Shown here: in pieces, positions 9,973 to 59,503 of the stretch
Numbering within the stretch: the stretch's first letter is position 1
How the letters are laid out: every line of letters begins with the position of its first letter
Source of the DNA: an uncultured Flavobacteriaceae bacterium
GTDB taxonomy: Bacteria; Bacteroidota; Bacteroidia; Flavobacteriales; Flavobacteriaceae
Reading direction: 5' to 3'
Assembly (NCBI GenBank): GCA_938011315.1
Contig: CALLUG010000004.1
Location: forward strand, 1 to 64,000
Length of the DNA: 64,000 nucleotides
The notes under the pieces: generated by a model
The model's database searches: none
Seen by the model: the letters and a program-made list of their open reading frames with translations, nothing else
Told to the model about the DNA's origin: nothing
Position numbers and translations under genes: made by a program

Positions 9973-10538
9973 ATGAAGAAGTTAGTAGTGGTGCTATTAG
10001 TTGTTGTAAGTTTTAGCTGTAAAAAAAAACAAGGCGTACACGTATTATTTTCAAACAGAAAATGGTGAATTTTTTGAAAACAAGTACGACTTAGAGGAAG
10101 TAGAAAGAATAACGTTTCCTCTAGATGATGTTTCAGGATATTTACATCATTCTGTTGGATTCAATAAATCCTCTTCTGATAATGAGTACTATTATTCGTT
10201 TTTGAACAATCAAGACAAATCCATTACTTTTTATAACTTAAAAGAAAAAAAACAAGAAAAGTTTAACAAGTAATGTTACAAATACAATGATTGAAATAAT
10301 TGATAGCCTTGAAAAAGAAACAGCTGTAGTGTTTACAGGAGTAAGGGATATGAAGTTGTTTAAACTACAGGTTGATACTTCGTTTTTAACGAAACCCAAT
10401 ATCGTAATTGACAGCGAAAATATTTTTAAAAGATCCGAAGTATCATCCATCTACCCTCAGGTAATATTTCTTAAAAAAGAGCGTGTTGCTGCGATTAACA
10501 TTTTTGACAAATCGTTGTTACTGCCTCAAATACCTTAA
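9973..10538 (+). pseudogene. Frameshifted lipoprotein gene related to the gene at 30149-31339
   Basis: An ATG at 9973 opens a lipoprotein signal (MKKLVVVLLVVVSFSC), but the frame stops after about 31 codons. Reading on after the A9 tract at 10021-10029 with one A fewer gives YYFQTENGEFFE and then a long segment that aligns with the start of the 396-residue lipoprotein at 30149 (shared QTENG, I-x-x-PL, Y-x-S-x-LN and SxTFxNL). It stops again at 10270-10272. Removing one A from the A8 tract at 10245-10252 opens the frame to the stop at 10536-10538. The repaired product would be 187 residues, about half the length of the paralogue. So this is a remnant with two +1 shifts at homopolymers, or two sequencing errors in a shorter intact gene. 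Confidence 0.75.
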
Positions 10539-10673
10539 TTTTTGCCAAATCAAAAATTGAGTTTTCAAATTAAGTAAAACCAATCCCTTTATGTTACAAA
10601 CAAAATAAAGATTTTATATTATAATTGGTATAAAACAGCATTACTTCTTTAAGGGCGAGTCATTTTTTTTATC

Positions 10674-10708
10674 AAAAAAAGGCTACCTTTTTGAGGTAAC
10701 CTTTTTTT
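10674..10708 (-). terminator. Rho-independent terminator downstream of rplS
   Basis: A GGTTACC/GGTAGCC stem flanked by paired A7/T7 tracts, with a loop of about seven bases, lies 32 nt beyond the rplS stop. It could work in both directions, because T runs are present on both strands. Confidence 0.85.
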
Positions 10709-10739
10709 GTAATTATTTTTGTTAATAACAAGAAGTGGA

Positions 10740-11090
10740 TTAACGTCTTCTTTCTTTAATTCTCGCTTTTTTACCAGTAAGTTCTCTAAAGTAAAAGATT
10801 CTTGCTCTACGCACTTTACCTCTTTTATTGACTTCAATTTTTTGCAAAGCAGGTAAGTTTAATGGAAAAATACGCTCTACACCAACGGTGCCTGACATTT
10901 TTCTAATCGTAAAGGTTTCGGAGGTTCCTGTTCCTCGTCGTTGCAACACAACGCCTCTAAAAAACTGTGTTCGTACTTTTTCACCTTCTCTAATTTCGTA
11001 AAATACAGTAATTGTATCTCCTGCTCCGAATTCGGGAAATTCTTTTTTTGCTACAAATTCGTCTTGTACAAATTTTATTAAAGCTTCCAT
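10740..11090 (-). CDS. rplS: 50S ribosomal protein L19
   Basis: A 116-residue L19, full length. It sits at the 30S-50S interface and helps form intersubunit bridges. The sequence shows the family core GDTITVFYEIREGEKVRTQFFRGVV, the basic RRGTGTSETFTIRKMS segment and the C-terminal KVRRARIFYFRELTGKKARIKE. It lies downstream of trmD on the same strand, the usual rpsP-rimM-trmD-rplS neighbourhood in bacteria, although rpsP and rimM are not here. A 180-nt gap with dyad symmetry separates it from trmD, and a strong terminator follows. Confidence 0.97.
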   Translation of the reverse strand: MEALIKFVQDEFVAKKEFPEFGAGDTITVFYEIREGEKVRTQFFRGVVLQRRGTGTSETFTIRKMSGTVGVERIFPLNLPALQKIEVNKRGKVRRARIFYFRELTGKKARIKERRR

Positions 11091-11170
11091 TTTTTGTAGT
11101 ATTTAATAGATTTTTTCAAAATAACATTCACGATTTTCGCTAGAGGTTAGTTCAAAATTAGGCGCAAAAC

Positions 11171-11230
11171 TAAGTATTATTTAATCGTTAAGCAATACTT
11201 ATAGTGTTTTTTTTTGTAGAGGTACCTCTA
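11171..11230 (-). promoter_or_regulatory. Dyad-symmetry elements in the rplS leader region
   Basis: Between trmD and rplS lie a perfect 14-bp palindrome TAGAGGTACCTCTA (11217-11230) and a hairpin with 8-bp arms (11171-11178 with 11194-11201). They sit where the 5' leader of an rplS transcript, or a trmD terminator, would be. A ribosomal-protein leader role is possible but not shown by sequence alone. Confidence 0.35.
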
Positions 11231-11271
11231 TTATTTTTAGTACGTTCATAAATTTAAAAAAAAAATCTAAA

Positions 11272-11949
11272 TTAATCTTTTAACAAATCTGGTCTGCGTT
11301 GTTGTGTACGCTTATAGGCTTGTTCTTCTCTCCATTTATCAATTTCAGGAAAGTTACCACTGCACAATACTTCGGGAACGGTCATCCCTTTATACTCTCT
11401 AGGTTTGGTGTAAATAGGGGGGGCTAGCATGTTATCTTGAAATGAATCTGTTAGGGCAGAGGTTTCGTTGCCTAGCACTCCTGGGATTAGTCGTATTATA
11501 GCATCGCATAGTACTGCTGCGCCAAGCTCTCCTCCCGATAGGACGTAGTCTCCAATAGAAATTTCTTTGGTAATAAAATAATCTCGTACACGTTGGTCTA
11601 CGCCTTTATAATGCCCACAAAGGATAATAATATTTTTTTTTAGCGAGATATGGTTTGCAGTGCTTTGGTTTAAGGTTTCCCCATCGGGCGTCATGTATAT
11701 CACTTCATCATAATCACGTTCTGCTTTTAGTTTACTAATACAGTTATCGATAGGTGCTATAGTCATTACCATACCAGCACCACCACCAAACTGGGTATCG
11801 TCTACAGATTTGCGTTTGTCTGTAGTATAATCGCGTAAGTTATGAAAATGAACATTGACCAAGTTGGCCTGTATGGCGCGCTGTAGTATAGAGGCCTCAA
11901 ACGGACTTTTTAGTAATTCTGGTAACACCGTAATAATGTCGATTCGCAT
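11272..11949 (-). CDS. trmD: tRNA (guanine-N1-)-methyltransferase
   Basis: A 225-residue SPOUT methyltransferase that makes m1G37 in tRNAs with a G36, preventing +1 frameshifting. The trefoil-knot cofactor region is clear: [12 protein letters not shown], then [14 protein letters not shown]. The conserved FGGGAGMV loop and the C-terminal DNA/RNA-binding helix are also present. The start [13 protein letters not shown] is the standard N-terminus. It lies 44 nt after the coiled-coil membrane-protein gene and upstream of rplS on the same strand. Confidence 0.97.
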
Positions 11950-11993
11950 GGTTTAATTTATTTTAATGCTTCAAATTACAGTGTGTTATGTAG

Positions 11994-12647
11994 TTATATG
12001 CCTTTTTGCTTGTTAATTTCATCTTGTAACTGCCGACGCACTTTTTGTTCACGTTCTAGGGCGTTACGTCTATGTGCTTCAAAATCTTCTTCAATTTCAA
12101 TTAAAGATTTTTTGGCAGATTTGGTAATAATATTGCTATTTCGATACTTAAAAATAAAGATAAAAAGAAGAATAAACAGCAGGCTTATAATTGCCCACAT
12201 TAATACATTGTAAGAGGTTTTAGACAGCTGCGTTCCAAATACATTAATACTGTCTGTTTTGCTATTGGTTTCGTCTAGTATTGCTTGTGTATTATTTAGG
12301 TTTAGTTTTAGCTTTGTAATTTGTTCTTCTTGTTGTTTAATAACATTACTAGCGTCATCATTTTTGCTTTGTAGAGCTTTGAGTGAGTCTAAGGTTTGTT
12401 TTTTTAATTCGTTTAGGAGGTTCGTTCTAATTATTTTATAGGGACGCCCCCTTTTGTCGGTCCAATTACTAGCTTTTCCTACAGTAATCTCAAATTGAGA
12501 TTTGATGGTTTCTTTTGTTTCAGTAGTTTTGGTTTGAGTTGTTTGTTGTGCAAAAACAGGGTTACCAAAACTGAATAGACAAATGACGACTAGAATAAGT
12601 TTTGCATTAAGTGTCGCAAACAACATTTGTAAGTTTTTAAAATTCAT
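11994..12647 (-). CDS. Coiled-coil inner-membrane protein of unknown function
   Basis: A 217-residue protein. The N-terminus has a hydrophobic export signal (AKLILVVICLFSFGNPVFAQ, about 16-35). A Thr/Lys-rich segment and a periplasmic helical, coiled-coil-prone region (about 75-135) follow. A strong transmembrane helix at about 148-167 (VLMWAIISLLFILLFIFIFK) leads into a charged cytoplasmic helix with heptad character. It lies directly upstream of trmD in the same orientation and is a common neighbour of trmD in Flavobacteriaceae. It has no methyltransferase motif, so any RNA-modification label taken from its neighbour would be wrong. The function is unknown. Confidence 0.75.
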   Translation of the reverse strand: MNFKNLQMLFATLNAKLILVVICLFSFGNPVFAQQTTQTKTTETKETIKSQFEITVGKASNWTDKRGRPYKIIRTNLLNELKKQTLDSLKALQSKNDDASNVIKQQEEQITKLKLNLNNTQAILDETNSKTDSINVFGTQLSKTSYNVLMWAIISLLFILLFIFIFKYRNSNIITKSAKKSLIEIEEDFEAHRRNALEREQKVRRQLQDEINKQKGI

Positions 12648-27201: not shown

Positions 27202-28668
27202 TCATGTGTTTTGAGGATTATTAACATGGATACGCAATATGCGTTTCGTTTCGTTTTGTACTACAGGGTGTTTTTTGTGTCCCCAAATTTTATTGCGGGC
27301 TAACTTTGCGCTTTCTTGCAAATTTACAATAGGTAAGGGGTAATCTACACCTATAGTAACGCCACAAAAACTCTGTTCCATTAAGGTCATTTCCCAAGGG
27401 CTATGAATATAAGCTATGGGTACATTGGTTAGTTCCGGAATCCATTTTTTTATAAACACCCCTTGAGTATCGTGCTCTTGTGAGTTTTTTACAGGATTAT
27501 ATAATCTAACGGTATTAATTCCTGTAGTGCCAGCTTGCATTTGAAATTGTGGATAGTGTATTCCTGGTTCGTAATCTAAAAATTGTTTTGCTAAATAATA
27601 GGCGCCATCTCTCCAATCTTGATCTAGGTTAAATGTAAAAAATGAGACTAGCATTGCCCGCATTCTAAAATTTATCCATCCTGTTTGTTTTACAGCACGC
27701 ATACAAGCATCGACTAAGGGATAACCCGTTTGTCCTTTTTTCCAAGCATTAATAAACGCTGCATTTTTTTTATGATGTAATAGCTCATAACCTTTATTAA
27801 TACATAAAGTTTCATAGCTGCACTCTACTTCAAACTTTTGTATAAAATGGCAATGCCAATGCAGTCTAGTAAGCATTGCCGAAAAGGCTTTTTTATGTCT
27901 TGGAGCATTAGTATGTGTACTTACAAACTGAAAAGCTTGTTTGATACTCATATTTCCCCAAGCCAAATATGGCGATAGCCTGCTGCAAGACAATCTGCTG
28001 TCTTTAGGTTTCGAAATGTGTTTTTGATAGTTAAATCCTCGGTTTTCGGTAAACGATTGTAAGTAGCGCCACGCATTTTTTTCGCCTGCAGGCTGGTAGT
28101 GTTTAGGATAAGTTTTTAAGTTGCTTTCTAACACTTTTGGCAGTGTAAAAGGATGTACAATATTTGCTAGTTTTGAAACAGTATAAGTATTCCTAATACT
28201 GGGGGTGCGCATTGTTTCGTGCCATTTTTTACTCCAATGATGTCTGTTTTTAATACCGCGTAAAATACCGTCACGTTGAGACTCCTGCCAGTCAATATGC
28301 CGAGCTTTGCAAAGTGCCGCAATGTCTTTATCGCGCTGCCAAGTTATATTGGTGCCGCTTTCTTGAACACTATACAGGGTTTTAATGTTAAAAAATTTTA
28401 AGAGGTAATTAAAAACATTAGTAGCTTCGCCATAACAAACGGTAACACGTCGGTTAAAAGGGCTTAACCTATTATTCATTGCAAGAATAGAATGATATAC
28501 AAACTGCAAGTGCCTCAAACTTGTATCTGGATGATTAATAAGTTTAGGTTCAAAAAGATATATAATATAATAAGGAGTACCACATTGTTCTGCCTTTAGT
28601 AGAGGTTCGTGATCTTGTAAGCGTAAATCACGTTTTAACCAAACAATATTTATAGTTTTCTTTTTCAA
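27202..28668 (-). CDS. Cryptochrome/photolyase family protein
   Basis: 488 residues. The N-terminal antenna-chromophore Rossmann domain starts [21 protein letters not shown]. The C-terminal helical FAD domain is seen in [42 protein letters not shown] and [21 protein letters not shown]. The latter differs from the 'NWQWvAG' of classical CPD photolyases (compare 50124-51431), so it may be another repair class or a light sensor. The start is a TTG at 28668 that overlaps the TGA of the preceding gene (TTGA), a tight coupling. No regulator is adjacent. Confidence 0.85.
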
Positions 28669-29813
28669 TAGTTAAGTTCTTTTTTGCACCGTTTCCAAAA
28701 CGCAAAAAAAGAAGGGTAGTAGCCTTGCACACTAAACATCCAATCTCTAGCAACTTCTGTACCTACATAATGTGTACTTAGAGGATGTTCTTTATAATAA
28801 ACATCTGTAAGCCTATGCTGAGTCATTAAGTCATTAAACTCTCCTATAAAAATTTGAATATTGCTAAGGTTTGTCGTGGCTAAATCAATTATGAAATTGA
28901 GTGTTTTTTGTGAAATAGGATATGTTTTAAAATGGGAAGGTTCTAATAATAATATTCTATTGGCTAAGATTTCTTTTCCCCAGTTAGGATCTAGGTTATA
29001 AAAATTGTAAATATATGTTGGCAGTGTTTCGTTAAGGCTAATTGTAGTTTGCTTTGGTAAAGACGTTTTTAAATCTAATGTTGTTAAGTTTGTTAAAACC
29101 TTAGGAACTTGCATCGTAGCAAATTCATGATATGCTACATCTAAGAAAGTGTTGCGTTGTTTTGTAAAACAATACGTGTTAATATTAGCCTGATTGGCAA
29201 CATATTTTTTGTTAGCATTCGCTCCAGCAACCCATTGCCAACTTAACGCGTTACTAGCCCAGTCGGCATCTAGTAAATGGTAATACATCCATTGAGCAGG
29301 GTTGTACCAGTGACTTTTAGCAATATTACAAGCTATAGAGGCTATATACATACGCAAATGATTGTGTAAGTACCCCGTGTTATAAAATAATTTTATGGCA
29401 TTATCTATGGCATAAATACCTGTATTTGCTTTTACAATGGCTGTAGCAATATTTGTATTTAGCACAGGATTTTGTTTGTGTTTTAAATCATTATTAATCT
29501 CCTCTTTCTTTGCAACCCATACTTGCTGCCAATAATCTCGCCACGCAAGTTCTTGAATAAGTTTTTCTATTGTAATGGGTTTATAACCTTTACTTAAAAG
29601 AGATGATAATATCAGTTTTGTAGAGATAACCCCTCTAGAAATATAAGGCGATAAGTAAGTAACAGCACCATTAATATAGTTGCGTGTGCTTCCATATTTA
29701 GCTCCATTTATATTGTTAACCCGCTCAAGTATTTTAGTATAACAAACAGGAAACATCGTATTGTCTTCTTTAAATAACTGTGTTTGCTTTGTTGTTGTCA
29801 TACTAATTGGCAC
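28665..29813 (-). CDS. FAD-domain-only photolyase-like protein with extra C-terminal domain
   Basis: 382 residues. It starts directly in the photolyase FAD-binding helical domain ([88 protein letters not shown]). There is no N-terminal antenna domain. After the FAD domain (to about 215), roughly 170 residues follow with a Rossmann-like pattern ([14 protein letters not shown]..., [14 protein letters not shown]...) and an aromatic-rich tail ([19 protein letters not shown]). The MTTTKQ Met or the first Met could each be the start. It is the upstream member of a two-gene operon with the cryptochrome-family gene. FAD binding is likely. DNA repair or light sensing cannot be told apart. Confidence 0.8.
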
Positions 29814-50123: not shown

Positions 50124-51431
50124 TTAAGAAAGTGCTTCTTTATACACTTTTAGGCAACGTTCTCTTGCCGTTTTATGCTCTACTATTTGTGATGCTACAT
50201 AGCTTAATTCTTGATACTCTGGCACCCATTTTTTAATATAAATCAACTGTTTATCAAATTTTTCAATTTGAGTATGAGGATTAAATATCCTAAAGTAGGG
50301 AGCCGCATCTACTCCGCAACCAGCAACCCACTGCCAGTTACCCACATTACTAGATAGTTCATAATCGTTTAGCTTTTTTGCAAAATAGGCTTCTCCCCAT
50401 CGCCAATCGATAAGCAAATGTTTGCACAAAAAACTACCCACTAGCATTCGTACACGATTATGCATAAATCCTGTTGCATTTAGCTCTCGCATTCCTGCAT
50501 CTACAAAGGGATATCCTGTATTTCCTGCACACCATGCGTTAAACTCCTTGCTATTATTTCGCCATTTAATATTTTCATATTTTGGCTTAAAACTTTTAGT
50601 AACAGTGTGGGGGAAATGCCAAAGAATTTGCATAAAAAATTCTCTCCAAATCAGTTCTTTTAAAAACGTTATATCACTCTGTTGATTAGCTTGTTGTACA
50701 ATGTCCCTAATACTTACTGTTCCAAACCGTAGGTGAGGGGCTAACCTTGAAGTGCCTTGCACCCCCGGTAAATCTCGTGTAGCTTGATATGCACTAACTA
50801 ACTCTGGTGTTACTATGTAGGAAGCAACGCTAACAGGGTTAATTTTAAATCCTATAGCATTTAGGCTCAAAAAAGAAGATGGTTGTTCAATAAACGCCTT
50901 AATTAATTGCTGAGACGGGTATTGCTTTACGTTTTGTTTTTGATATGCAGCAAGCCATTTTTTTGAATAAGGCGTATAGACTTTATAAGGCAACCCATCG
51001 TCCTTTACAATTTCATTACGTTCAAAAATAACTTGATCTTTGTACGTTTTAAAGGCAATAGCATTTAGCTCTAAAAGGTCTTTAATCGTCTTATCTCTAT
51101 GAATTGCGTAAGGCTCATAATCGTGATTTGCAAATACAGTATTAACACGATATGTTTTAATTAATTCAGAAAAAACAGCCTTAGGGTCTCCTTTCAAGAT
51201 TTTTAGAGATCTATTATTTTGCTCTAGGACTTCGTTAATTTGTTTTAGTTGTTTATATATAAAAGTAATACGTGCATCATCTTCTGGTAACTTACTTATA
51301 ATTTGAGTATCAAAAATAAAAATGGGGAGAACATTTCCTGACTTTAAGGCATGGTATAGCCCTATATTGTCGTTGAGTCGTAAATCACGCCTAAACCAAA
51401 AAATATTAACTGTTTTATTAGTAGTTTCCAA
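50124..51431 (-). CDS. phr: Deoxyribodipyrimidine (CPD) photolyase
   Basis: 435 residues with both photolyase domains. The N-terminus is VNIFWFRRDLRLNDNIGLYHAL. In the FAD domain, ELIWREFFMQILWHFP, GNTGYPFVDAGMRELNATGFMHNRVRMLVGSFLCKHLLIDWRWGE and LSSNVGNWQWVAGCGVDAAPYFRIFNP match class I CPD photolyases. It repairs cyclobutane dimers with blue light. It overlaps the upstream SRPBCC gene by 14 nt, a common pairing in light-responsive Bacteroidota operons. A third family member beside the two at 27-30 kb. Confidence 0.95.
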   Translation of the reverse strand: METTNKTVNIFWFRRDLRLNDNIGLYHALKSGNVLPIFIFDTQIISKLPEDDARITFIYKQLKQINEVLEQNNRSLKILKGDPKAVFSELIKTYRVNTVFANHDYEPYAIHRDKTIKDLLELNAIAFKTYKDQVIFERNEIVKDDGLPYKVYTPYSKKWLAAYQKQNVKQYPSQQLIKAFIEQPSSFLSLNAIGFKINPVSVASYIVTPELVSAYQATRDLPGVQGTSRLAPHLRFGTVSIRDIVQQANQQSDITFLKELIWREFFMQILWHFPHTVTKSFKPKYENIKWRNNSKEFNAWCAGNTGYPFVDAGMRELNATGFMHNRVRMLVGSFLCKHLLIDWRWGEAYFAKKLNDYELSSNVGNWQWVAGCGVDAAPYFRIFNPHTQIEKFDKQLIYIKKWVPEYQELSYVASQIVEHKTARERCLKVYKEALS

Positions 51432-51879
51432 AAAGTTCGATTAATTTTTTTTGACGGTAATTAAATATTTCTTCTAATTTAGGCTTTACTAATATTGGAT
51501 GCACCAAACGGCCTAAAATACCAAAAGGAACTTTGTAATCTATAATGTCTTCCATCTCTACGCCACCATCAATAGCTTTTATAAAATGTTTATGATGCCA
51601 TAAAGCGTAGGGGCCAAAACGTTGTTCGTCTACAAAGTAAGCTTTGTCTACAACGTGTGTTATTTCTGTAACCCACTTAGTTTTGATATTAAAAACAGGG
51701 GTTACAATGTATTGAATAATTTGTCCTGCATACATAGGTTTTGTAATTTCTGTTAGAATGTCAAAACTCATATAATTCGGCGTAATGGTTTTTAGATTTT
51801 TAGGATCGGATAAAAATGCCCAAGCTTTGTCTACAGATATAGGTAGTTTTTGTGTTTTGTGTAGTCTGTATATTTTCAT
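51418..51879 (-). CDS. SRPBCC (START-like) family protein
   Basis: A 153-residue helix-grip protein: MKIYRLHKTQKLPISVDKAWAFLSDPKNLKTITPNYMSFDIL opens the START-like fold and EDIIDYKVPFGILGRLVHPILV closes it. Such proteins bind hydrophobic ligands and often sit next to photolyases and MerR/LitR regulators in light-induced clusters. Here the 3' end overlaps the photolyase start and aquaporin lies 6 nt upstream, making an aqp-SRPBCC-phr operon. Ligand unknown. Confidence 0.88.
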   Translation of the reverse strand: MKIYRLHKTQKLPISVDKAWAFLSDPKNLKTITPNYMSFDILTEITKPMYAGQIIQYIVTPVFNIKTKWVTEITHVVDKAYFVDEQRFGPYALWHHKHFIKAIDGGVEMEDIIDYKVPFGILGRLVHPILVKPKLEEIFNYRQKKLIELFGNY

Positions 51880-54161: not shown

Positions 54162-54386
54162 ATGACTGATTTAGGACTTTATTTGTCGAGAAAATCTGTA
54201 AACAGGTCTGACGTATCTCGTAAGACAGGGATTAGTAAAACTCGACTTAGTGAATTGGCTAATAATAAAAGTACAAAGCTTAGAGCTGACGAATTATACC
54301 TAATAGCTTTAGCTATAGATGTAGAACCTTGCGAAGTATTAAAAGAGGTTTGTAAAGATGTTGTACTCAAAGAAGATAATATATGA
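54162..54386 (+). CDS. Small XRE regulator (controller-protein-like)
   Basis: 74 residues, essentially one Cro/CI helix-turn-helix: VNRSDVSRKTGISKTRLSELANNKSTKLRADELYLIALAIDVEPCEVL. Size and position match controller (C) proteins that time expression of restriction-modification genes. Its stop codon overlaps the methyltransferase ATG (ATGA, 54383-54386). Two related inverted repeats lie in the 137-bp divergent region upstream, which suggests it represses or tunes both its own operon and the small opposite gene. The assignment as regulator is firm, the C-protein role is inferred. Confidence 0.85.
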   Translation: MTDLGLYLSRKSVNRSDVSRKTGISKTRLSELANNKSTKLRADELYLIALAIDVEPCEVLKEVCKDVVLKEDNI

Positions 54387-55441
54387 TTGGTATTGAAATT
54401 TTTGCAGGCGCTGGGGGAATGGCAACAGGTGCTGTGAATGCAGGTGTAGATGTTTTAATGGCGATAGAAAATAACCCTTATGCCGCACAAACTTATCTTG
54501 CTAATCATAAAAAAACTACAGTAGTAGTTGATGGTATAGAAAATATAAAAGAAATAAAATTTGAAAGGAATAATGAGGAAGTAATATTATTTGGTGGTCC
54601 ACCTTGTCAGGGTTATTCCTATTCAAATAGAAAGACAAGGTCTTCTAAAAACCCAAAAAACTGGCTTTTTAAGGAGTTTATGAGGAGTATTGAAATGGTA
54701 AAACCAGATTGGATTGTAATAGAAAATGTACCTGGTCTAAAAAAAATGGATAATGGTTTCTTTTTAAAAGCAATATGTGACGATTTGCATAAATTAAAAT
54801 ACACTCCAAGCTTTAAAATTCTTAATGCTGCTGATTTTGGTGTACCTCAAAAAAGGGAAAGGATTTTTATTGTAGCTTCTAGAAAAGGAATCGCTTTTGA
54901 TTTCCCCATTGGACAATTTGAAAACAATCATATTACAGTTAAAGAAGCTCTTTCTGATTTACCTAATCTAAAAAATGGTTCTACAGAGCATAAGCTAAAG
55001 TATAAAGCGAAAGCTACATCCACTTATGCAAAAAAAATGAGAGGTAATAAAAGAGTTGTTACTCAAAATTATGTATCTAAAAATTCACAAACTGTAATCG
55101 AAAGATATAAACACATAAAACAAGGCAACAATTGGAATGATATCCCAGCGAGTTTGATGGGAAATTATAAAGACCATACAAGGTGTCATAGCAGTATTTA
55201 TAGAAGACTAAATGAAAAAGAACCTGCTGTAATAATAGCTAATTACAGAAAGAGTATGATGATACATCCTTTGGAAGATAGAGGATTGTCTGTAAGAGAA
55301 GCAGCAAGGTTACAGTCTTTCCCAGACCATTATGAATTCATAGGCTCTTTAGACCAAAAGCAGCAACAAGTAGGTAATGCTGTACCTCCAATATTAGCTG
55401 AAGCTATTTTTAAAAAAATTAAAACATATTCTTTAGTATGA
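54383..55441 (+). CDS. DNA (cytosine-5-)-methyltransferase
   Basis: A 352-residue C5 methyltransferase with motifs in order: I (IEIFAGAGGMATG, about 4-16), IV (GGPPCQGYS, catalytic Cys75), VI (IENVPGL, about 113-119), VIII (QKRERIFIVA, about 156-165), a target-recognition region of about 185-290, then IX (REAARLQSFPDHY) and X (QQVGNAVPP). All catalytic motifs are intact, so it should be active. Length and layout are those of Type II modification enzymes. The target sequence cannot be read from the protein. It overlaps the genes on both sides by 4 nt (ATGA). It may mark self DNA for the proteins encoded downstream. Confidence 0.96.
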   Translation: MIGIEIFAGAGGMATGAVNAGVDVLMAIENNPYAAQTYLANHKKTTVVVDGIENIKEIKFERNNEEVILFGGPPCQGYSYSNRKTRSSKNPKNWLFKEFMRSIEMVKPDWIVIENVPGLKKMDNGFFLKAICDDLHKLKYTPSFKILNAADFGVPQKRERIFIVASRKGIAFDFPIGQFENNHITVKEALSDLPNLKNGSTEHKLKYKAKATSTYAKKMRGNKRVVTQNYVSKNSQTVIERYKHIKQGNNWNDIPASLMGNYKDHTRCHSSIYRRLNEKEPAVIIANYRKSMMIHPLEDRGLSVREAARLQSFPDHYEFIGSLDQKQQQVGNAVPPILAEAIFKKIKTYSLV

Positions 55442-56472
55442 GTTGGGTTGAAACTACATTTGAAAAGGCTATGAAACGCCACTTTATTGATAAATTAGAA
55501 AAACAAAAAGGGGAGCATTTATATGGTGAATATACTAGCGTTAGAAACGCTATGGAAGGAGATAACTTTTTTAAAGAAATAAAAGGACAAGAACCTGATT
55601 TGTCTGACCATAGCGAGCAACACATACAAGATGTTTTAGAAAGAGCATATAAAGTAATAGGAGAGGAAGAGTTTTTAAAGTTTACTCCAAAAGAAATTTA
55701 TTGTTTGGCATTAATGATTTTGTTTCACGATGTAGGAAATATTTATGGAAGAGAGGAACACGAATCAGTGAAAAAAATTGCTGAAATCTATAATAAATAT
55801 AGAAATAACGTTCAAAACTACAGAAATGAAAGAAGGCTTATAACATTAGGAGCAAGTTCACATAGTGGTATATCTAAAGACGGCTCTAGAGATACATTAA
55901 AGGATGTATCTGATAGTTTTTTAGGAGAAGACAAAATACAATTACAAGAATTAGCAGCTATCCTCAGATTTTCAGATGAATTAGCAGAAGGAAAACAAAG
56001 AACCTGTTCTTTACTGCTAGAAAAAGATTTAATAAAACAAGATAGTAAAGTTTATCACAGGTACGCTCAGGTAACCAATATAGAGATAGATAGAAACTTA
56101 GAAAGAATCTCTATCACTTATGATATTGATATACCAAAAGATTTTGATGAAAATGCACAAGAAGAATTTAAAGAATTAATGCACTTCACCTATTACAGGG
56201 CAGTTAAATTAGATATTGAAAGAAGATACACAAAATATTATTCGAATGTATTAAAGCGATTTAAATATGTATCAGTGCAATATAATTTCACAAAAGATGA
56301 AATGCCTATACAAATAGACTTAAGCCACATAAATTTTGAAGATAGATATCCTATACCAGGAGAAACTAGTACTGAAAAAATCAAAAAGGAAGCTGAAGAG
56401 TATTTTATAAGTAAAGATAAAGATTATGAAATCTCTACATTAATTGAAAATATAAACTCTTTAAACACTTAA
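55438..56472 (+). CDS. HD-domain phosphohydrolase-like protein
   Basis: 344 residues. The metal-site residues of an HD phosphohydrolase are present in order: LSDHSEQHIQDVL (His58/His62), LFHDVGN (His97-Asp98), REEHESV (His108), SSHSG (His142) and the late Asp of RFSDELAEG (Asp180). A phosphohydrolase activity on nucleotides or nucleic acid ends is therefore plausible. The C-terminal 150 residues are an alpha/beta region of unknown type (RISITYDIDIPKDF; VSVQYNFTKDEMPIQIDLSHINF). It is coupled to the methyltransferase by ATGA and lies 5 nt before the ATPase. The role is inferred: effector or messenger-degrading enzyme of the system. Confidence 0.8.
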   Translation: MSWVETTFEKAMKRHFIDKLEKQKGEHLYGEYTSVRNAMEGDNFFKEIKGQEPDLSDHSEQHIQDVLERAYKVIGEEEFLKFTPKEIYCLALMILFHDVGNIYGREEHESVKKIAEIYNKYRNNVQNYRNERRLITLGASSHSGISKDGSRDTLKDVSDSFLGEDKIQLQELAAILRFSDELAEGKQRTCSLLLEKDLIKQDSKVYHRYAQVTNIEIDRNLERISITYDIDIPKDFDENAQEEFKELMHFTYYRAVKLDIERRYTKYYSNVLKRFKYVSVQYNFTKDEMPIQIDLSHINFEDRYPIPGETSTEKIKKEAEEYFISKDKDYEISTLIENINSLNT

Positions 56473-56477
56473 TAATT

Positions 56478-58193
56478 ATGGAAAATCCTTTTGTATTTGA
56501 TAGGCCAAACAATGTTAGTGTTGAGCAATTCATAAAGTTTTATATTAAAGAAAATATTTATACTAGGTTCCTTGAATCGACCCGTAACATTTTATTAATA
56601 GGAGTACGAGGTAGTGGCAAAACCTCTACCTTAAGATACTATTCTTTTCCTGTTCAATACGCTAATCCAGAAGTGAAAAACAAGTTTGATGTAGTAGGGA
56701 TTCATATTCCCAGTAAACATCCTCTTTTTAGTAAAAGAGAATACTTATTGTATGAGAATAATAACAAAAAAAGTGTAGTTGTAGAGCACTTTTTGTGCAT
56801 AAACATAATTTCTTGCATTTGCGAAACTTTTATTGACAGTTCTGCAAATCTCGATTTAACAAAAGATATCGAAGAACTTATCTTAAAAAACCTTTCATTT
56901 ATTTTAGAATCTGACTTTCCTGTAGGTATGCCATTATTTAATAGTGTTAAGCTATTTCTTAATAAAGAGGCTAATGCTAGTCAAAGAAAATTAAATAATG
57001 AAGATTTTGAAAGTTTCATAGATTTTGCATTTTCTTTTAATAATACTGTTATCCCTTTTTTAGAACAACTTAAAAACATACCAAAATTAAAAAACTCTCA
57101 TTTCTCTCTATTTTTTGATGACATACAGGATTTAGGAAGCATACATCAAGAAATAATTAATTCTTGGGTATCTTATAGAGATAATAAATTATTCAGTTTT
57201 AAAGTAGCTACAGCAGATATTAAACCATCATTTGTAACATCTACAGGAGGTGTTATTTTAGAAGGTCACGATTTTGTCAAAATTGACTTAACAAGAAGAA
57301 TATTTAATAAAGATTCGGAATTTAATAAGTTCGCTAGAGATGTTATTTCTAAAAGGTTAAATATTGCTAAAATTGATGTTAGTGTTGATGAATTTCTGTC
57401 AGAAAGTGAAAGCTTTGAAAAAGGATTACAAGAAGGTAGAGAAAAAGCGAGGGAAAAGGCTAACGAAAAATATCCTAACCCAAAAAAAACTCAAATAGGC
57501 GACTACGTAGCTAAATATGGTAGAGCAATTTATTTTAGAGAAAGAAATTCAAAAGCCAATGTTCCTATTTATTCAGGTTTTGAAACTCTTGTTGACGTTT
57601 CAACGGGTGTAATACGAAACTTATTGACTCCACTTTACTATATGTACGAAAAACAATTAGCAAACTCTAGTTCTGATACGGTAACACAAATACCTCCAAA
57701 TATTCAAAGAGATATAATTCTGAATAGAAGTGAAACTTTTTGGGAAAAAATCAAGGATATTGATTCTGAAATAGAAAATTGTTCAGAAGAATTAGGGAAA
57801 AAAATAAATAATTTTTTCAATCAATTAATTATTTATTTGAAAAAAAGACTTAAAAATGAAGATATTTCAGAACCCAGAGCTCTAAATTTTATTGTTTCTC
57901 AGGTTTCTAATGAAGAAGAACAAAAACAAATAGATGAAATAATAAATGCATCTTTAAGAAGCACTTTATTATATAAAAGAATGGTAGGTCATAAAGCAAC
58001 AGGAATTAAAATACCTTTATATGTACCAAACAGAATAATGTTACCAGTATATGGATTAGATTCTCACGGACAATATTCTCATTTTCCAATTACCGCTAAA
58101 GCTTTTTTAGACGCCGCTATAAGGAATAAAGAGATTCCATTCTTTGCAGATGAAGATGATGCTAATGACAATCAACTTGAATTATTATTTTAA
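56478..58193 (+). CDS. AAA+/ORC-CDC6-like P-loop ATPase
   Basis: 571 residues. Walker A is GVRGSGKTS (about 42-50), Walker B is SLFFDDIQD (about 210-218) and a sensor-1-like segment FKVATADI follows (about 241-248). The first 280 residues form an AAA+ or STAND-like ATPase module. A Lys/Glu-rich helical stretch (EGREKAREKANEKYPNPKK) then links to a long helical C-terminus with a possible winged-helix end (KIPLYVPNRIMLPVYGLDSHGQYSHFPITAKAF). ORC-like ATPases of this type occur in prokaryotic conflict islands. It is probably the motor or sensor of the operon. It stops 1 nt before the next ATG. Confidence 0.82.
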   Translation: MENPFVFDRPNNVSVEQFIKFYIKENIYTRFLESTRNILLIGVRGSGKTSTLRYYSFPVQYANPEVKNKFDVVGIHIPSKHPLFSKREYLLYENNNKKSVVVEHFLCINIISCICETFIDSSANLDLTKDIEELILKNLSFILESDFPVGMPLFNSVKLFLNKEANASQRKLNNEDFESFIDFAFSFNNTVIPFLEQLKNIPKLKNSHFSLFFDDIQDLGSIHQEIINSWVSYRDNKLFSFKVATADIKPSFVTSTGGVILEGHDFVKIDLTRRIFNKDSEFNKFARDVISKRLNIAKIDVSVDEFLSESESFEKGLQEGREKAREKANEKYPNPKKTQIGDYVAKYGRAIYFRERNSKANVPIYSGFETLVDVSTGVIRNLLTPLYYMYEKQLANSSSDTVTQIPPNIQRDIILNRSETFWEKIKDIDSEIENCSEELGKKINNFFNQLIIYLKKRLKNEDISEPRALNFIVSQVSNEEEQKQIDEIINASLRSTLLYKRMVGHKATGIKIPLYVPNRIMLPVYGLDSHGQYSHFPITAKAFLDAAIRNKEIPFFADEDDANDNQLELLF

Positions 58194-58194
58194 A

Positions 58195-59088
58195 ATGGAG
58201 AATAAAACATTAATAACTGTTTTAGGTTGGGAAGATAGATTTATGTCTGGTACAGATATAATTTTAAAAGAGAATAATATAGAAAAGGTTATATTAATTT
58301 ATTATCAAGATTATGCTTTTATGAATAATGAAAGTAAATCTAATTTCATAAAGAAAATAGATGAATCAGGTGTTGAGATTAAAGTAAATGAAATAGAATT
58401 GAATTATTCGAGTTCAATAGATAATTGGAAAACATTGGACTTGTTTTTTAACGAATATGATATTGATTCGGATAATGTTTTATTAAATATCACTACTATT
58501 CCTCGTGAAACTATATGGACATTGTTATTTTTTCTTAAAAAAACACATAATAGTATTAACTATATATACTTTAAACCTGAAAAATATTGTGATGATTGGT
58601 TAACAAAAAATCACAAAAACCCACGTTTGCTATTTAAACATTCAGGAGTCTTTGACTTAGATAAAAACCTTGTATTATTTATAATCACTGGATTTGATGG
58701 TAGTCGTCTAAATTCTCTTACTGAATATTACGAGCCTTCAAAAGTTGTTGTATTCAGTCAGACAGGTAATCAATTTGATAACGATAAGAGAAATAATGGA
58801 CTAAATAACAATAACTTTATAGAAATAGAAAAAGTAGAGTTTAATAGTTATGATGTAATAAATTCTTCAAGAATATTAAATCAGAAAATAGAAGAATATA
58901 AAAATTGTAATATTATTATTTCATCACAAGGCCCAAAACTATCATCACTTAGTACTTATAAAAATTATATATCAAGTAAAAAAATTGCCTTATCATATGT
59001 TCCTGCAAGAGAATTTAATGATAAATACTCAATAGGAATTGATGAGAACTATATATCAGGAGTTTTCAGTTTTGAAAATAAAATCTAA
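58195..59088 (+). CDS. Protein with two Rossmann-like halves, unknown (CARF-like?)
   Basis: 297 residues from the ATG at 58195, one base after the ATPase stop. A longer in-frame start exists at 58144 but would overlap the ATPase by 50 nt. The protein appears internally duplicated: TLITVLGWEDRFMSGTDII...IEKVILIYYQD...VLLNITTIPRETIWTLLF...INYIYFKP in the first half, and LVLFIITGFDGSRLNSLTEYY...SKVVVFSQTG...NIIISSQGPKLSSLSTY...IALSYVPA in the second. Each half has the beta-alpha-beta rhythm of a Rossmann-like sensor and an early G-[WF]-x-D/E motif. That resembles CARF/SAVED-type ligand sensors in outline only. No catalytic motif is obvious. Confidence 0.7.
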   Translation: MENKTLITVLGWEDRFMSGTDIILKENNIEKVILIYYQDYAFMNNESKSNFIKKIDESGVEIKVNEIELNYSSSIDNWKTLDLFFNEYDIDSDNVLLNITTIPRETIWTLLFFLKKTHNSINYIYFKPEKYCDDWLTKNHKNPRLLFKHSGVFDLDKNLVLFIITGFDGSRLNSLTEYYEPSKVVVFSQTGNQFDNDKRNNGLNNNNFIEIEKVEFNSYDVINSSRILNQKIEEYKNCNIIISSQGPKLSSLSTYKNYISSKKIALSYVPAREFNDKYSIGIDENYISGVFSFENKI

Positions 59089-59503
59089 CGTGAATCACAT
59101 CGAAACATTCTTAATAAGTGAACTATCAACCTATAACTTAGAATTAACCACCAAAACCGATGGGAGGGAAGGAGTAGATTTTTTAATAGGAAAACATCAC
59201 ATATACTTACTACCACTAGATTTAGATACTGTAAAACAAAGTATTAAAATTGCAAAACAAGATTTAGGAGAACTAAACGACAACTTGTTTATCGCTTTAA
59301 TTTTAATTATAGATAAACAACCAAGAGTTGTTTATTTCATTCCATCTAAGGAATTACAAGATTCCAACAATAATTTCTTTGTAAATAATGAGGTTAGTTT
59401 AATGCCCAGTTTATCTAATTGGGAAATTAAAATATCAAGTAAAGCTATAGAGGAATTAGAAAAGTACGCTTTAAATAATATAGTAAATAAACTAAAAGTT
59501 TAG
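59042..59503 (+). CDS. Small alpha/beta protein, possible divergent PD-(D/E)XK-like fold
   Basis: 153 residues if the ATG at 59042 is used. TTG at 59072 and GTG at 59090 are alternatives, and all overlap or abut the end of the previous gene (stop 59086-59088), so coupling is likely. The layout is helix, DGREGVDFLIGKHHIYLLPLDLD, helix, LFIALILIIDKQPRVVYFIPSKEL, then LSNWEIKISSKAIEELEKY. This recalls small PD-(D/E)XK nucleases, where the GVDFLI segment gives the Asp. The usual E/QxK is not evident (LLPLD instead), so catalysis is doubtful. It is the last gene of the operon and the only candidate nuclease in it. Confidence 0.65.
   Translation: MRTIYQEFSVLKIKSNVNHIETFLISELSTYNLELTTKTDGREGVDFLIGKHHIYLLPLDLDTVKQSIKIAKQDLGELNDNLFIALILIIDKQPRVVYFIPSKELQDSNNNFFVNNEVSLMPSLSNWEIKISSKAIEELEKYALNNIVNKLKV

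Follow-up and report, generated by a model that had tools for sequence, protein, structure and literature searches.

A putative inverted-topology CPD photolyase of Bacteroidota that probably takes the place of DASH beside PhrB

The window analyzed here, a stretch of 64,000 nucleotides from an uncultured Flavobacteriaceae bacterium, encodes on its reverse strand an inverted-order photolyase that we refer to as SP. Judged from its sequence, SP is likely to be an inverted-topology (NewPHL/SPL) CPD photolyase driven by light, representing a branch that extends across the Bacteroidota, and it probably replaces DASH in these bacteria. The features described below are listed in Table 1.

Table 1. Photolyase-family features in the window
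Feature	Coordinates	Strand	Basis or remark
SP, inverted-order photolyase, 382 aa from GTG start	28665..29813	-	ORF scan, Pfam, AlphaFold2
SP FAD domain, about residues 20-243	29085..29756	-	Pfam, fold search; CPD-pocket E88, W91, N151, M155, N188, W192, W194
SP C-terminal alpha/beta domain, residues 256-382, probable reduced antenna domain	28668..29048	-	AlphaFold2, Pfam, profile comparison
488-aa photolyase/cryptochrome-family protein, normal order, DNA_photolyase then FAD_binding_7, CPD residues lost	27202..28668	-	Pfam, alignment
TTGA, SP TGA stop overlapping TTG start of 488-aa gene	28665..28668	-	Exact 4-bp overlap in 14/103 loci
Canonical photolyase of the window's genome, 435 aa, N-terminal PF00875 and FAD_binding_7	50124..51431	-	Pfam

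Architecture and active site of SP

The SP reading frame is open across 382 codons and its product belongs to a conserved family, and it is therefore genuine and not a chance ORF. The true start is unsure, with the GTG, Met5 and Met20 all possible, since the first 20 residues are modelled poorly (pLDDT 55-60 by AlphaFold2) and many relatives begin near Met20 (window position 29756). FAD_binding_7 is the sole Pfam family above cut-off (E 1.9e-20; residues 86-206, corresponding to positions 2-127 of the 203-position profile). Pfam finds no DNA_photolyase domain in SP and no PF00875 at its N-terminus, and assignment as a class I CPD photolyase of normal order was rejected for lack of the latter. 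No alpha/beta domain lies ahead of the FAD domain, and the catalytic domain is N-terminal according to Pfam, AlphaFold2 and a fold search alike.

The AlphaFold2 model of SP (pLDDT 95.2, pTM 0.91) was built from a 79-sequence alignment, comprising the window protein and 78 of the best 80 of at least 583 loci, two shorter ORFs having been dropped. When the whole model was searched against solved folds, residues 14-243 matched photolyases (best Z 18.0, rmsd 3.1, 224 residues aligned); the search aligned mostly this region and is uninformative on the C-terminal domain. The preliminary description of this DNA had placed the FAD domain almost at the N-terminus, which is borne out by Pfam and by the match to solved photolyases, and had proposed that about 170 residues with Rossmann-like strands follow it. 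A separate alpha/beta unit does follow, including the RILLLEP and IQIFIGE strands, but it is shorter, at about 127 residues. Its strands are modelled at residues 266-270, 285-290, 319-323, 338-341 and 352-354 and its helices at 292-297, 302-315, 326-333 and 369-377.

Residue equivalences were taken from alignment to the Anacystis enzyme, using literature numbering. Anacystis E283, W286, N349 and M353 correspond to E88, W91, N151 and M155 of SP, and D380, D382, N386, W390 and W392 to D182, D184, N188, W192 and W194; these are positions of the CPD pocket and the FAD site. Equivalents of the nine Anacystis residues are kept in 76 to 79 of the 79 SP members, with W91, N151, N188, W192 and W194 present in all, E88 in 77 and M155 in 76. 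The counterpart of Anacystis W367, W169, is found in 78 of 79; the triad lacks its distal tryptophan, and where the Anacystis enzyme has W314 most members carry V, I, T or A. C162 (74/79) is the only cysteine retained in 65 or more members, and the four-cysteine Fe-S site is thus absent.

SP is a conserved and probably functional enzyme. It would bind FAD and take up blue light through the flavin itself, as the shrunken C-terminal domain leaves little room for an antenna pigment. It would repair CPDs by electron transfer, likeliest in single-stranded or unpaired DNA, the task that DASH performs elsewhere. The C-terminal domain would be a stripped antenna domain that has been relocated to the C-terminus, where it covers the FAD site.

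Distribution, gene neighborhood and the coupled 488-aa protein

Full-length SP homologues are present in the genomes of 8 of 60 relatives (E 7e-130 or better); the next match stands at 5e-17, and matches at that level lie in photolyase-size ORFs. Across a phylum sample, SP was found in 18 of 395 Bacteroidota genomes (E up to 1e-30). A pattern search of a named genome collection returned at least 583 stretches encoding an SP relative, and the best 80, which were kept, all have Bacteroidota titles except for one Rhodobacteraceae record (L074) and two titled only 'bacterium' (L113 and L143). The L074 record, from an uncultured Rhodobacteraceae, holds an SP and 488-aa pair (9974-12546), the SP being 67% identical to that of the window, and either a label or binning error or transfer would account for it. 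Plasmid records gave 162 matches, of which two, from Persicobacter, span 80% or more of the query; 10 matches in phage records cover 30 to 50% of it, in the FAD region, and none of the 25 pattern matches in viral contigs was confirmed.

By profile comparison the SP FAD domain is nearer to inverted proteins of alphaproteobacteria (E 1e-42) and Deinococcus (E 3.5e-40, from two sequences) than to canonical CPD photolyases (E 8e-28). In the tree a single group (98/96) unites the 22 Bacteroidota proteins sampled, seven alphaproteobacterial inverted proteins group together, and likewise the four from Deinococcus; the comparison set consists of plasmid-borne relatives and contains no characterised NewPHL sequence. 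In a quick tree made without two long rows (Thermus and a Pseudoalteromonas DASH) and the 11 Fe-S photolyases, a branch separates all 33 inverted-order rows from the rest (SH-aLRT 100). With the Fe-S photolyases included, that group is nested in the inverted set at a weak fork (81/63), and a single inverted clade is not rejected (AU p 0.415).

PhrB is encoded by 132 of the 395 genomes of the phylum sample and DASH by 98 (96 over cut-off). Every one of the 18 SP genomes also encodes PhrB (Fisher p 1e-9, ignoring kinship), and a DASH gene occurs in 1 of these 18. Within the PhrB genomes, 1 carries both SP and DASH, 17 SP only, 87 DASH only and 27 neither (p 9e-9, again ignoring kinship); the sole genome with both (G138) has two DASH matches. 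Four families (codes f1, f22, f37 and f38) each hold SP-only and DASH-only genomes, and a single genus (g176) includes one species with SP and two with DASH. A similar pattern appears among the 60 relatives, 8 of which carry SP, 11 DASH over cut-off and none both. PhrB is present in 20 of them, including 7 of the 8 SP genomes and all 11 DASH genomes, with two PhrB genomes having neither, and TIGR03643 scores over cut-off in 24, including all 8 and all 11, respectively. In 9 of the 11, DASH precedes phrB on the same strand by 20 to 280 bp, and SP precedes it by 27, 147 and 172 bp in three of the seven genomes that have both SP and PhrB, all distances being between matched segments; in the remaining SP genomes with PhrB it lies 2.2 kb before phrB in one and elsewhere in three. 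It is the presence of PhrB in all carriers of the phylum sample, the single DASH among them and the shared slot before phrB that suggest that SP probably replaces DASH.

Of all 103 distinct loci, 52 have a PhrB-type gene on the strand of SP and within 4 kb of it, and 44 have a TIGR03643/DUF2805 gene no more than 500 bp upstream; a flavin-reductase-like gene was found within about 7.5 kb of SP in 5 of the first 25 loci. The cluster is scattered in the window's genome. SP and the 488-aa gene are together, and PhrB, which is the fourth photolyase-family member, is found farther along this contig, at about 73.8 kb and beyond the window. The TIGR03643 gene and a relative of the flavin-reductase gene follow one another on a different contig (L178, 9081-10060), and this is the pair that surrounds SP in other Bacteroidota. 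The canonical photolyase ORF, with a TTG start, overlaps its upstream ORF by 14 bp (50124-51879). Further along (54383-59503) is a conflict/defence-like gene run encoding a type II DNA methyltransferase, an HD-CE protein, an ORC-CDC6-like ATPase, a CARF-like protein and a small unknown.

The TTGA overlap between SP and the 488-aa gene, pointed out in the preliminary description, is confirmed. A gene of the 488-aa type lies directly downstream of SP in 20 of the 103 loci, and in the 14 with exact overlap it starts with TTG in 11, ATG in 2 and GTG in 1. Throughout the 28 members of the 488-aa family the CPD-pocket residues are replaced: Arg takes the place of the CPD glutamate in 27, Phe that of Asn349 in 28, Ala that of Met353 in 25, His that of Asn386 in 28, Phe that of Trp390 in 26 and Met that of Trp392 in 28. 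With such replacements the 488-aa protein is unlikely to be a CPD photolyase. The invariant histidine stands in place of an asparagine near the flavin N5.

Ten of the 60 relatives have the 488-aa type, 4 with SP and 6 with DASH and no SP, and 4 of the 8 SP carriers are without it; being present with either enzyme, it is linked to the cluster and not to SP alone. The pair is thus conserved yet not obligatory. That the two proteins work together, as had been suggested from the overlap, holds in so far as the coupling recurs and supports joint expression, and the overlap would keep the two in step within one UV-repair operon; these same counts do not favor a dedicated two-protein complex. They also weigh against a heterodimer of SP and the 488-aa protein, the intact antenna domain of the latter harvesting light in trans for SP. 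The overlap is conserved, and the 488-aa protein keeps a full antenna domain, which SP lacks, as such a heterodimer would have it, but with half of these SP carriers managing without the partner and six of its ten holders having DASH instead, we regard it as very improbable, and the lending of an antenna domain in trans is unsupported.

Two other explanations concern the function of SP itself. SP could be a cryptochrome-like blue-light sensor that performs no DNA repair and regulates the neighboring repair genes; the missing distal tryptophan of the triad fits this, as does coupling to a protein without the CPD residues, a state frequent in sensors. Every CPD-pocket residue that was checked is nevertheless kept in nearly all members, and the DASH-like distribution and gene slot suggest repair, such that a sensor is improbable. 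A decayed or truncated photolyase gene would be shorter than canonical photolyases, as SP is, and might match only part of the FAD profile, as SP does, although 79 members with the same architecture throughout, catalytic residues that do not vary and a mean column identity of 50% leave this explanation with almost no weight, and it was dropped in view of the conservation across the phylum.

Origin of the C-terminal domain

The preliminary description had raised circular permutation or an unrelated replacement domain as possible sources of the C-terminal domain. The antenna domain of photolyases has the order b1-a1-b2-a2-b3-a3-b4-a4-b5, followed by a helix, and the modelled SP C-terminal domain has its elements in this order, minus a1 and a4. 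Direct searches gave little. None of the 79 C-terminal domains matches PF00875; Pfam returned 21 families, each in 1 to 4 members and with a best E of 0.0076 or worse. A PDB profile search yielded four matches (E 0.4 to 0.7), none of them a photolyase, and an early direct profile comparison with canonical N-domains found no match, after which the sets were widened.

The background for ranking the widened comparisons came from 40 unrelated families, each run both ways (80 runs, three photolyase families of 43 having been removed); the tests share sequences and thus are not independent. The SP C-terminal domain ranks 1 of 81 with Deinococcus C-domains, mixed canonical N-domains, the 488-type N-domain and a merged canonical-plus-Deinococcus set (E 0.0009 to 0.0018), with reverse-direction ranks of 6, 20, 20 and 6, respectively. 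It ranks 4 with a class I-type set (22 in reverse) and 38 and 22 with the Fe-S photolyase N-domain. There is no direct match to the alphaproteobacterial C-domains (ranks 55 and 29) or to a merged Deinococcus-plus-alpha profile (35 and 38), and adding the alphaproteobacterial C-domains to the Deinococcus set abolishes the match. The SP C-terminal domain stays in register with the merged canonical-plus-Deinococcus profile over 95 columns, up to a terminal FW-K motif, and its terminal stretch of 10 residues was aligned against PYKVYTPYSKKW. A test in which the canonical halves were swapped was uninformative, the score being independent of order (60 controls, 59 column-shuffled and 1 reversed).

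The Deinococcus proteins serve as a stepping stone. Three of their four C-domains match PF00875, albeit below its cut-off, and the four taken together match canonical N-domains (E about 1e-7, rank 1 of 81); the alphaproteobacterial C-domains match them in turn (E 8e-5 and 2e-4). On a plasmid of Deinococcus sp. QL22 (L168, 1336-2627) the inverted photolyase is present as two genes with a 4 bp overlap, the FAD part followed by the part with the weak PF00875 match.

Direct sequence evidence for a permuted antenna domain in SP is weak, and it is this stepping stone, together with the order of the modelled elements, that leads us to favor permutation, which is not proved; the profile link to canonical N-domains is a poor one, ranking 1 in one direction versus 20 of 81 in the other. 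The alternative is that the antenna domain gave way to an unrelated alpha/beta domain, with the element order arising by convergence of a common fold. The absence of PF00875 from all 79 C-terminal domains, the four PDB matches without a photolyase and ranks of 20 to 22 for canonical sets in one direction all agree with it. However, two canonical sets, the Deinococcus set and the merged set rank first in the other direction with one register extending to FW-K, and the Deinococcus proteins, whose FAD domains are close kin, have C-domains that do resemble PF00875 and canonical N-domains; we consider an unrelated domain unlikely, albeit less so than a sensor. Taking permutation as the favored reading, a wider scenario is quite possible but tentative: in Bacteroidota a permuted, antenna-stripped photolyase may repeatedly have displaced DASH beside phrB, the two being alternative single-strand repair enzymes of a PhrB-centred UV-repair cluster, with the C-terminal domain a reduced antenna lid over the flavin.

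Comparison with known photolyases

The architecture of SP is already known, as inverted-topology photolyases (NewPHL/SPL and Phr4-Phr7) have been published. NewPHL reportedly substitute for DASH in many bacteria (a finding attributed to Emmerich 2020), and the DASH substitution idea is perhaps also known. The Bacteroidota branch, the phrB slot and the count versus DASH were not found in the literature searched, much of it in excerpt, and the founding papers (Emmerich 2020, Xu 2021) may describe the branch. The present family extends inverted-topology photolyases to a branch across a phylum in which the C-terminal domain has diverged past Pfam recognition, and this branch bears on the choice between circular permutation and domain replacement as the source of the inverted order. 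That SP and DASH are nearly mutually exclusive in PhrB genomes makes the stand-in idea directly testable in cultivated bacteria.

SP resembles DASH cryptochrome, the ssDNA photolyase, in its probable role and in its slot before phrB, although its domain order is opposite and membership of DASH was rejected at 58.4 bits versus a TIGR02765 cut-off of 317.05. According to the available excerpts, NewPHL/SPL repair CPDs in single-stranded DNA and have an inverted topology (PMC13274461), and are without the N-terminal domain (PMC9649867). SP likewise has its FAD domain first and a smaller domain last, has no N-terminal antenna domain and keeps the CPD residues, and the alphaproteobacterial relatives (388 to 410 aa) have the same layout. 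Unlike the NewPHL/SPL comparison set, SP forms a separate tree group, has a C-terminal domain that does not directly match the alphaproteobacterial ones, and is tied to phrB and the 488-aa gene.

Reversed domain order, in one gene or two, is also described for picocyanobacterial Phr4/Phr5 and Phr6, and Phr7 consists of an FAD domain and a short Z-domain (PMC9426592, in the part available). The Deinococcus relatives of SP similarly occur in one-gene and two-gene forms, the QL22 protein being split like the published phr4/phr5. Phr4/Phr5 and Phr6 have a photolyase domain that can be recognised as such and retain four Fe-S cysteines (same excerpt), whereas SP has neither. A UV-B inducible operon of two photolyases with overlapping gene ends, for which one transcript has been shown, is reported from Synechococcus PCC 7335 (PMC9649867, in excerpt), and SP and the 488-aa gene are likewise two photolyase-family genes with overlapping ends. 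The downstream gene of that operon, as given in the same excerpt, is of PhrSph98 type and keeps the lesion-stabilising Glu and Asn, in contrast to the 488-aa protein, which has Arg and Phe at the examined Glu and Asn positions.
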